From: an uncultured SAR116 cluster alpha proteobacterium
GTDB lineage: Bacteria; Pseudomonadota; Alphaproteobacteria; Puniceispirillales; Puniceispirillaceae
NCBI GenBank assembly: GCA_902573725.1
Contig: CACGLE010000004.1
Location: forward strand, 1 to 64,000
DNA: 64,000 bases
Direction: 5' to 3'
Positions 36,037 through 39,609 of this stretch are shown here, piece by piece. Position 1 is the first letter of the stretch; each line of letters begins with the position of its first letter. Made by a program: the position numbers and the translations under genes. Below the pieces are notes generated by a model. The model worked only from the letters and a program-made list of their open reading frames with translations. It was not told the origin of the DNA and did not search any database.

Positions 36037-38604
36037 TTAAGATTTTGTGGTGGTTTTTTTCTTTGTGGATGACTTCTTACCCGATTTTTTTTTCTTTGGA
36101 GGGCTAGCCGCTTTATCTTGTAAAAGTGCGATTGCCTGTTCCAAAGTTACGTCACTCATTTCTATGCCCCTAGGTAATGATGCACGTAATTTTTTATGCT
36201 CAACATAGCTTCCAAAGCGACCTCGTTTTAACTCAACTTCTCCTCCATCGGGATGCTCACCCAGAGTTCTTCCAGCCTTTAGTTGTGCTGCTGCTAATAA
36301 ATCTACCGCACGATTAATTCCAACAGATAACACATCATCATCCGAGGTTAAGCTAACAAATTTTCCTTGATGTTTTAGAAACGGACCATATCTGCCTATT
36401 CCTGCTTGAATAGCCTCGCCTGATTCTGGGTGTAATCCAATTTCTCGCGGAAGTGATAGCAATGAAATTGCCTGCTCAAGGGAAACTTGATCAGCACTAA
36501 TTCCCTTTGGAAGTCCTGTCCGTTTCGGTTTTTTAATCTCTTCGCCGCCTTGTTGGACATACCAGCCATATGGCCCCTTTTTTAACCAAATAGGCATATT
36601 TGTATTAGGGTCAATTCCTAATTCAGTATTATCTTGAAGTTGTGTTGAGTTCTCTGCAACTTGAGAGTCATGCACTTGCTTAGTGTAGTTACAATCTGGA
36701 TATTTAGAGCATCCAATAAAAGGTCCATATTTGCTAAGTTTAAGCTCAAGATATCCCTCGTTACACTTGGAACAAATTCGATTTACATTTCCATTCTCAT
36801 CAGGTTTGAAAAATAATCGTTCAAGATCATTATCAAGCGCTGCCATGACATCCGGTACTGGTAATTCCTTCGTTGAATCAATATTTAGCTTAAAATCATA
36901 CCAGAATTGAGATAGTACTTGTTTCCAATCAAGCCTTCCGCCTGAAACATCATCTAACTGATTTTCAAGGCTAGCAGTAAAGTCATATTGAACGTATTTT
37001 TCAAAGAAATTTTCGAGAAAGGTTGATACAATTCTACCACGGTGTTCTGGAATAAACCGTTTTTGATCTTTCCGAACGTACCCTCTTTTTTCTAAGACTT
37101 GTAAAATTGAAGCGTAGGTAGAGGGTCTCCCAATTCCTAACTCTTCAAGGTTTTTAACAAGGCTCGCATCAGTAAACCTTGGAGGCGGTTGAGTGAAATG
37201 TTGTTCAGGAAGGATCTGCTCTTGACTGAGGATTTCTCCTTTTTCTACTAATGGAAGAATGGCTTCTCCATCCTCTTCTTTGCTATCTTGGTCACTCGTT
37301 TCATCTTTACTTTCAAAATAAGCGCGTCTAAAGCCATCGAATATTATTACACTACCATTGCTTTTCAGTTCTATGGAATTATCCTGATCTATAAAACGAA
37401 TGGTCGTTTGGTCTATTTCTGCCGAGTTCATCTGACTGGCAACAGACCTCTTCCAAATCAAGTCATATAAACGAAATTGGTCATAATCAAGATAAGACCG
37501 AATATCATTCGGATGTCGCTTAAAACTGGTTGGTCTAATGGCCTCATGTGCCTCCTGTGCATTTGCTGCTTTAGTTTTGTAAAAGCGCGGTTTTTCAGGT
37601 AAATACTGCTCACCATAAATTGAAGCTATTTCATCACGTAAAGAAAAAATGGCCTCACTACTCATTTGCACGCCATCAGTTCTCATATAAGTAATCAATC
37701 CGGTTGTTTCACTTCCAACTTGAATACCTTCATACAATCGTTGAGCAATCTGCATTGTTCTTGAAGCAGAAAATCCAAGTTTACGCGATGCTTCCTGTTG
37801 TAAAGTTGAAGTGGTAAACGGCGCAGATGGTTGTCTTTTTGTTCGTTTTGTATCAACAGATAAGACAGAAAAAGTTGCCACCTTGATTTTCTCTTCAATC
37901 TCTTTTGACTGCTTTTCTGAGGTAATGTCAAATTTACCAACCTTTTTAGAGTCGAGGCTACCAAGTCTGGCGATGAGGTGCTTGTCGTCTTGCGTTTTTA
38001 ATTTGGTATCTATGGACCAATATTCTTCTGAATAAAAAGACTCAATATCTGCCTCTCTATTACATATTAAACGTAAGGCAACTGATTGCACTCTACCCGC
38101 TGATTTTGCTCCTGGAAGTTTTCTCCATAAAACAGGTGATAGATTGAAACCAACTAAATAATCTAATGCACGGCGCGCCAAGTAAGCGTTTACCAAGTCA
38201 TAATTAATCTCTCTTGGTTTATCCATCGCGGCCAAAATAGCCGATTTTGTAACTTCATTAAAAACAACTCTTTCACTTGGAATGTCTTTCAAGGATTTTT
38301 TAGATTTAACAAGTTCTTGCACATGCCAGCTTATTGCTTCTCCCTCGCGGTCGGGGTCGGTTGCAAGAATTAGTCTATCAGCCTTTGATAATGCATCTGT
38401 TATTTCCTTAATATGCTTATTTGATTTCGCGTCGGTCTGCCAACTCATTTCAAAGGAATGCTCTGGTAATACTGAACCATCCTTGGCAGGCAAATCTCGG
38501 ACATGACCATAGGAAGCCAGAACAGTATAGTCAGCCCCTAGATATCTGTTTATGGTTTTTGCTTTAGCAGGAGATTCTACTACTACAACTTTCATTCTGT
38601 CCAT
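36037..38604 (-). CDS. topA: DNA topoisomerase I
   Basis: TopA relaxes negative supercoils. The 855 residues hold a TOPRIM domain (VVVESPAKAKTINRYLG, then TDPDREGEAISWH), the catalytic Tyr in TGLITYMRTDGVQ near residue 318, and a C-terminal zinc ribbon with CSKC and CSKYPDC. Two topoisomerase C-terminal repeats (GIGRYGPFLKH, KRGRFGSYVEHKKLRASLP) and a Lys-rich tail end the protein. Starts at 38604 or 38595 are equally plausible. Confidence 0.96.
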   Translation of the reverse strand: MDRMKVVVVESPAKAKTINRYLGADYTVLASYGHVRDLPAKDGSVLPEHSFEMSWQTDAKSNKHIKEITDALSKADRLILATDPDREGEAISWHVQELVKSKKSLKDIPSERVVFNEVTKSAILAAMDKPREINYDLVNAYLARRALDYLVGFNLSPVLWRKLPGAKSAGRVQSVALRLICNREADIESFYSEEYWSIDTKLKTQDDKHLIARLGSLDSKKVGKFDITSEKQSKEIEEKIKVATFSVLSVDTKRTKRQPSAPFTTSTLQQEASRKLGFSASRTMQIAQRLYEGIQVGSETTGLITYMRTDGVQMSSEAIFSLRDEIASIYGEQYLPEKPRFYKTKAANAQEAHEAIRPTSFKRHPNDIRSYLDYDQFRLYDLIWKRSVASQMNSAEIDQTTIRFIDQDNSIELKSNGSVIIFDGFRRAYFESKDETSDQDSKEEDGEAILPLVEKGEILSQEQILPEQHFTQPPPRFTDASLVKNLEELGIGRPSTYASILQVLEKRGYVRKDQKRFIPEHRGRIVSTFLENFFEKYVQYDFTASLENQLDDVSGGRLDWKQVLSQFWYDFKLNIDSTKELPVPDVMAALDNDLERLFFKPDENGNVNRICSKCNEGYLELKLSKYGPFIGCSKYPDCNYTKQVHDSQVAENSTQLQDNTELGIDPNTNMPIWLKKGPYGWYVQQGGEEIKKPKRTGLPKGISADQVSLEQAISLLSLPREIGLHPESGEAIQAGIGRYGPFLKHQGKFVSLTSDDDVLSVGINRAVDLLAAAQLKAGRTLGEHPDGGEVELKRGRFGSYVEHKKLRASLPRGIEMSDVTLEQAIALLQDKAASPPKKKKSGKKSSTKKKTTTKS

Positions 38605-38649
38605 CCAACTTAAAAAAAATCGATAAAAAACGTTTTTAATAAAAACGTA

Positions 38650-38780
38650 TTCATTTAATCCCTTTGAAAAAAAAACCTATTTAGACCTTATAACTAAAAT
38701 TCCAAGTTGGTTTCCTTAATTTCTAGAGCAGACAAATGACACCAGTTGATGAATTCGTCAATATTATTTGATTTTTTATT
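38650..38780 (-). pseudogene. dprA: Remnant of dprA (C-terminal winged-helix end)
   Basis: In the 358-base gap between plsY and topA, where alphaproteobacteria carry dprA in this orientation, one minus-strand frame reads NNIDEFINWCHLSALEIKET, then a stop-interrupted stretch ending GLNR. This resembles the DprA C-terminal winged helix (xIDELIxxxxLSxxxV, then LELELxGxIxR). Two stop codons interrupt the last part, and no other part of the roughly 370-residue protein is recognisable. DprA loads RecA on incoming DNA in transformation. Identification rests on position plus a short match. Confidence 0.6.
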
Positions 38781-38962
38781 AACATTTTCCAAAATTAAAC
38801 TTTGTTTATTTCAAAGTTTTTATTTCTTCGCTTTCTTACATTTTGTGCTTAACTTTTGATGAAAGTTGTAATCTGAAGCTTTATAAATCAATGAGAATTA
38901 AACATATTGATATCGCCAGGTTTTCTTCAAATTTTTTTATTTAATACTTTTTTGGGATTCTC

Positions 38963-39553
38963 TTAAGAACCTTCTAAAATTTTACTTTCTGTTCCAGACA
39001 CTAATCGTTTTATATTCTCTTTATGCCTAAAAAAGGTAATGAGTGTCATGAATAAAATAGCAAGAGATATATCACTTCTTTCTACAAAGAATGAGGAGAT
39101 GCTTGATACAAAAAATGCCAGAAGCGCTGAGAGCGAGGAATATTTAAACAAGAAAGCAATTATAATCCAGGTTATAATAAATAAAAATCCAGATATAGGA
39201 GATAGCATTGCAATTATACCTAATCCTGTGGCAACACCTTTGCCACCAGAAAATTTCAACCAAATAGGATAGCAATGTCCAACCACAGCACTTGCACCTG
39301 CTATTCCTAAATAAATATCAGGTAAATATAACCCAATTATATAAACACAAAATGCGCCTTTTCCTGCATCTAGAATAAGTGTAGCTGCTGCGAGAGATTT
39401 GTGCCCCGCTCTCAATACATTTGTTGCTCCAATATTTCCAGAACCAATTTTTCTAATATCACCTTCACCTGCGAATTTTGTTAGCAGTAATCCAAAAGGA
39501 ATGCTTCCAAAAAAATAGCCAGAAAGAAGTGCAATCAGTATTTCAATATTCAT
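38963..39553 (-). CDS. plsY: Glycerol-3-phosphate acyltransferase PlsY
   Basis: PlsY acylates glycerol-3-phosphate from acyl-phosphate, the first step of phospholipid synthesis. From the ATG at 39553 the protein has 196 residues with about five TM helices. The three active-site motifs are present: GSIPFGLLL, GSGNIGATNVLR, and KFSGGKGVATGLG. An upstream in-frame TTG is less likely. It lies between pyrC and the decayed dprA. Confidence 0.95.
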   Translation of the reverse strand: MNIEILIALLSGYFFGSIPFGLLLTKFAGEGDIRKIGSGNIGATNVLRAGHKSLAAATLILDAGKGAFCVYIIGLYLPDIYLGIAGASAVVGHCYPIWLKFSGGKGVATGLGIIAMLSPISGFLFIITWIIIAFLFKYSSLSALLAFFVSSISSFFVERSDISLAILFMTLITFFRHKENIKRLVSGTESKILEGS

Positions 39554-39609
39554 TGTCAAGCTCAATTCTCTAATTTTTGAAAGATAAAGATCCAGTTTTC
39601 AATATAAAT

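Follow-up and report, generated by a model that had tools for sequence, protein, structure and literature searches.

A fragment of the lost competence gene dprA in a SAR116 bacterium probably carries a heat-shock-type promoter of topA

Introduction

The promoter of a downstream gene can lie in the 3′ end of the upstream gene's coding region. The topA gene is controlled by sigma-32 in Escherichia coli (PMC8546631); in Pseudomonas aeruginosa, RpoH induces it 5.4-fold (PMC9866376). In Rhodobacter, the determinants of RpoHI promoters are TTG at −36 to −34, C−14, C−13, A−12 and T−9 (PMC3441632); topA is mentioned neither in the main text of that study nor in that of PMC3616915. Searches of article texts in the open literature gave no description of a topA promoter embedded in dprA, although one may have been noticed before in some species.

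Here, we compare these systems with a locus of an uncultured SAR116 alphaproteobacterium, contained in a 64,000-nt stretch of DNA (the window) from an assembly of 1.45 Mb in 75 contigs that is 64% complete. In the mechanism we propose, the ancestor of a SAR116 subclade would have lost dprA along with comEC and comF; the 3′ end of dprA would also house the promoter of topA, the gene that follows; and this predicted promoter, TTGAC-N17-YCAnnT, would fit RpoH (sigma-32, heat-shock) promoters.

Results

A dprA remnant lies between plsY and topA

The minus-strand gene order in the window is pyrB-pyrC-plsY-[358 nt]-topA-rnr, as originally predicted, and the dprA slot is exactly the plsY–topA spacer at 38605–38962 (minus strand, topA start to plsY stop). 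Its neighbours were said to be intact, and both are complete: topA, encoding DNA topoisomerase I and the presumed target of the promoter (36037–38604, minus strand), and plsY upstream (38963–39565, minus strand). The dprA-bearing relatives G002 and G006 have about 1.2 kb in this slot, and about 1 kb of the dprA 5′ region is gone from the window. Over its whole length, the spacer DNA is 91% identical to that of G008 and 88% identical to that of G004.

The original prediction described the spacer as holding a stop-interrupted piece resembling the DprA winged helix, and alignment to relatives supports that description. The peptide NNIDEFINWCHLSALEIKET is encoded at 38768–38709 on the minus strand, and its frame is terminated by a TAG at 38696–38694, 24 codons past NNIDE. 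Spacer bases 115–166 share 83–84% DNA identity with the dprA 3′ ends of the same-genus genomes G002, G005 and G006, whose DprA reads PIDIDELLNWCHVSAQ at the matching stretch and whose dprA occupies the same operon slot (a full gene of 366 codons in G002, and nearly full ones in G005 and G006, the G006 copy having a one-base frameshift close to its start that may also be an assembly error). Because this match is syntenic and reaches 83–84% identity, NNIDEFINWCHLSALEIKET is taken as a genuine dprA remnant; judged from the alignments, the resemblance is true homology and chance can be dismissed. The dprA 3′ end spans 38618–38772 (minus strand) and is nearly collinear with the intact copies. The Rossmann-fold domain of DprA is absent or broken: PF02481 (DprA) has no match in any part of the window's assembly (64% complete), and no intact dprA was found in G004, G008 or G009 (each 95% complete).

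Natural competence was lost long ago

The genes dprA, comEC and comF are jointly absent from G003, G004, G008 and G009 (90–95% complete) and jointly present in G002 and G006. Within the genus, G002 and G006 have comEC, and no dprA-less member does. G006 has comEC and comF despite its one-base dprA frameshift. In G005, dprA contains TAG codons and has a small deletion, comF is truncated and carries a stop, and comEC was not found. The dprA gene appears to be early in decay at loci L036 and L065 (G005) and L064 (G006). Of the order-level genomes with a completeness of 85% or more, 26 have both dprA and comEC, 17 have neither and 6 have just one of the two (Fisher P-value of 6e-8, with lineages that are not independent and kinship uncorrected). 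The loss of natural competence in the window's lineage is well supported, since dprA, comEC and, where tested, comF are missing in this genome and its close relatives. Separately, one genome of family f3 carries a DprA-domain gene remote from topA (G038:C1:98181-99298) that adjoins a partial ComF-like match; comEC was not found there.

The loss had been predicted to be recent, and that part does not hold. The dprA-less genus members, six species, form one topA clade with support 1.0, and the relic is common to the window, G004, G008, G003 and G001. The relics of the window and G003 share a nonsense codon, where G006 has GAG, and the two genomes are only about 0.54 identical at 4-fold sites. 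A single clade and a nonsense codon shared at this divergence indicate that the loss of dprA is old; most simply, it occurred once in this clade, and other genera lost the gene in separate events.

A core of the remnant is retained by selection

The remnant contains a conserved 47-nt core, ATCAAATAATATTGACGAATTCATCAACTGGTGTCATTTGTCTGCTC (38726–38772, minus strand), encoding the winged-helix piece IDEFINWCHLSA. As the stretch from the core to topA is nearly collinear in relics and intact genes, the relic serves as its own control. Between the relics of G000, G003 and G001, the core is 83–87% identical and the collinear remainder 52–69% identical; 37 of 47 core columns are invariant, compared to 51 of 115 elsewhere in the relic (Fisher P-value of 5e-5). 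Beyond the core, the relic has decayed to 49–52% identity to the dprA of G002 and G006. The core is also kept in relics of other genera (G013 in g5; G062 and G063 in g10), and the distance from the element within it to topA is 163–166 nt in the examined genus members, whether dprA is intact or decayed. A stop codon lies inside the core in G062 and G001; therefore, protein function is excluded as the cause of its preservation in those relics.

We then consider intact dprA from eight core-bearing genomes of seven genera. At the DIDELLNWCHVS stretch, 205 of 239 codon pairs are identical, compared to 97.8 expected from codon usage. This excess of 107 exceeds the null maximum (22.5 ± 5.8), the next-best separate dprA stretch (54) and the best topA stretch (50), and no peak of this kind is seen in genera lacking the core. 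The core dictates synonymous codon choice in intact dprA.

These measurements bear on two simpler accounts. The first is plain decay, whereby dprA is a functionless pseudogene and the winged-helix piece was left by chance; the stops and large deletions in the relic, and a spacer divergence from G008 and G004 that about equals that of 4-fold sites, are what it expects. However, relics older than the G000/G003 split retain just the core, relics of other genera retain it too, and the synonymous constraint in intact dprA is confined to it. Core conservation in relics and synonymous constraint in intact genes together rule out an even neutral decay of dprA, and we regard survival of the piece by chance as very improbable. 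The second is that a micropeptide, about 30 residues long and derived from the DprA winged helix, is still encoded by the relic; open frames, for example MLMKKSNNIDEFINWCHLSALEIKETNLEF in G008 and its similar counterpart in G004, suggest this. Against it, a TAG falls within the frame in G001 and G062, the product is too short for a winged helix, and the window copy, by a one-base difference, has no ATG in frame; its probability is vanishingly small. The alignments instead indicate that the surviving dprA piece is kept by selection and has not decayed evenly. The original prediction was right about the stops and overlooked the preserved core, which resembles a topA promoter.

The core contains a promoter-like element found across the class

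Within the core, TTGAC-N17-TCATTT (38734–38761, minus strand; a pattern match in the window) is the proposed RpoH-type topA promoter. In the window alone, a loose form of the pattern matches 3 times compared to 1.47 expected, which is not significant. A longer pattern, TTGACGAA-N12-TGYCATKTSTC, is found in 22 of 61 family genomes, each time as a single copy, and the reversed-pattern control has zero matches in all 61. Across 84,980 species, a scan found 60 stretches, about 50 of them within dprA-like frames or relics; they lie mostly 122–245 nt upstream of topA, in alphaproteobacteria, at loci with a G+C content of 36 to 72%.

For a class-wide sample, one genome per family was picked by its DprA domain, a choice made to avoid selection on the motif, and 69 of these genomes had topA adjacent. 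In the 420 nt upstream of topA, TTGAC-N17-YCAnnT is present in 38 of the 69 (shuffle mean of 0.18) and missing from the other 31. Spacings from 8 to 27 other than 17 give at most 2 matches each, and the antisense N17 pattern gives none. The TTGACGA type accounts for 27 of the matches, all inside dprA and typically reading TTGACGAA-N12-TGCCAATT where the genome is G+C-rich; 26 of these 27 use the GAA codon (12.6 expected from the same genes). The DprA winged helix reads Cys-His/Gln at the element, and has other residues in genomes without it. Twelve further class matches are intergenic or at a second place in dprA. Since the motif shifts its place yet stays upstream of topA, a promoter is likelier than a protein motif. 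At loci L205, L223, L228, L240 and L245, a second RpoH-like site, TTGAC-N17-CCATTT, lies about 26 nt farther down dprA (LTPxxxLTILLE) and either replaces or accompanies the first.

Some genomes without the element have other promoter-like sites upstream of topA. In the order, 13 of them carry TTGACA- or TTGTTA-N17/18-TAT at −54 to −78: TTGACA-N17/18-TAT sits 54–59 nt before topA in genera without the embedded element, and family f4 has the TTGTTA version at about −78. Another genome with no dprA in the slot (G038) has an intergenic TTGACT-N16-CCAATT at −66. The TTGACA and TTGTTA sites are consistent with promoter replacement. In a genus of family f4 without dprA and comEC (loci L073, L074 and L076), only about 90 nt separate plsY from topA, and a promoter-like site of the TTGTTA type, with TATCTG at its end, is conserved in this gap.

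The element resembles RpoH promoters

The same order provides a reference at groES, a classical heat-shock gene, where CTTGAC- or CTTGAA-N17-CCAnnT occurs in 16 of 18 upstream regions, and the motif at N12–N16 or N18–N21 occurs in none of the 18. Counted on the RpoHI numbering (PMC3441632), the window's element matches at TTG −36 to −34, C−13, A−12 and T−9, with a predicted transcription start at 38725 (minus strand). Position −14 is T in the window and G in G003, and C in most class members; C−37, present in all groES promoters found, is absent from the embedded topA elements (T in the window). The window's genome has rpoH. Together, these comparisons indicate that the element is probably an RpoH-type promoter; from sequence, we infer transcription from the element, its driving of topA and its reading by RpoH. 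A sigma-54 promoter was considered and rejected by eye, as the gap from GG to GC is 12 bases, not 10.

Alternatively, the same embedded topA promoter could be read by the primary sigma factor, as TTGACG, a 17-nt spacer and an extended −10 of TGn-CATTTG. Five of six −35 bases, the optimal spacing and the TG ahead of the −10 fit this assignment; the T at −7 is often missing in alphaproteobacterial primary promoters (PMC8407463); and the substitute promoters in genera g2, g4, g7 and g8 look primary-type. However, the class-wide −10 is CAnnT preceded by C or T, most often CCAATT as at groES, and not TAnnnT, while a sigma-70 consensus scan makes no call at the site. We consider primary-sigma recognition unlikely.

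The leader past the core is partly alignable as well, and some constraint may reach beyond the promoter and into the leader. Just ahead of topA, at 38626–38650 on the minus strand, an AT-rich inverted repeat, ACGTTTTTATTAAAAACGT, is followed by T runs; it is similar in G004 and G008, and its arms are changed in G003. No intrinsic terminator was called in the region of the topA leader and inverted repeat.

A further possibility is that the core is a regulator's binding site or an RNA element of the topA leader, and not the promoter itself. Conservation extends beyond the hexamers, to GAA following TTGAC and TC following the −10, and there is a partial TGAC/GTCA dyad. However, genes with the codons TGC or CAA lack an unbroken dyad, no Rfam match was found, the leader RNA folds no better than shuffles (z of −1.4), and the fixed N17 equals the spacing of groES promoters. 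A role of this kind is distinctly improbable.

Discussion

The explanation we favor, and consider probable on sequence grounds, is that the 3′ end of dprA contains a heat-shock-type promoter of topA and that selection retained that piece after the gene's death. On this proposal, the end of dprA owes its survival to the promoter it carried. A broader version, to which we give somewhat less than even chances, is that in much of Alphaproteobacteria the topA heat-shock promoter is written into dprA, determines some of the winged-helix residues of DprA and persists as a promoter fossil after competence is lost. If the promoter does lie inside dprA, the DprA C-terminus would be shaped by the promoter of its neighbour, and the locus may exemplify a protein whose sequence is constrained by a promoter lying within its gene.

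The pseudogene acts as a natural experiment, in which the remains of a dead dprA show what selection still requires. Our reading predicts stress control of DNA supercoiling across a large bacterial class. It also calls for caution, as deleting dprA in alphaproteobacteria may alter topA expression.

Compared to known systems, the predicted arrangement is closest to the sigma-32 promoter of E. coli topA (PMC8546631), which likewise places topA under a heat-shock promoter, with RpoH dependence here being predicted from sequence; unlike the E. coli promoter, the element overlaps the dprA coding sequence and outlasts dprA. RpoHI-type promoters of R. sphaeroides and S. meliloti have TTG at −36 to −34, C−13, A−12 and T−9 at the same distances as the window's predicted element (PMC3441632), whereas the window copy differs at −37 and −14, with T in place of the usual C. 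In contrast to embedded promoters in general, this element is conserved class-wide and, in several separate losses of dprA, is the part of the dead gene that has been preserved best.
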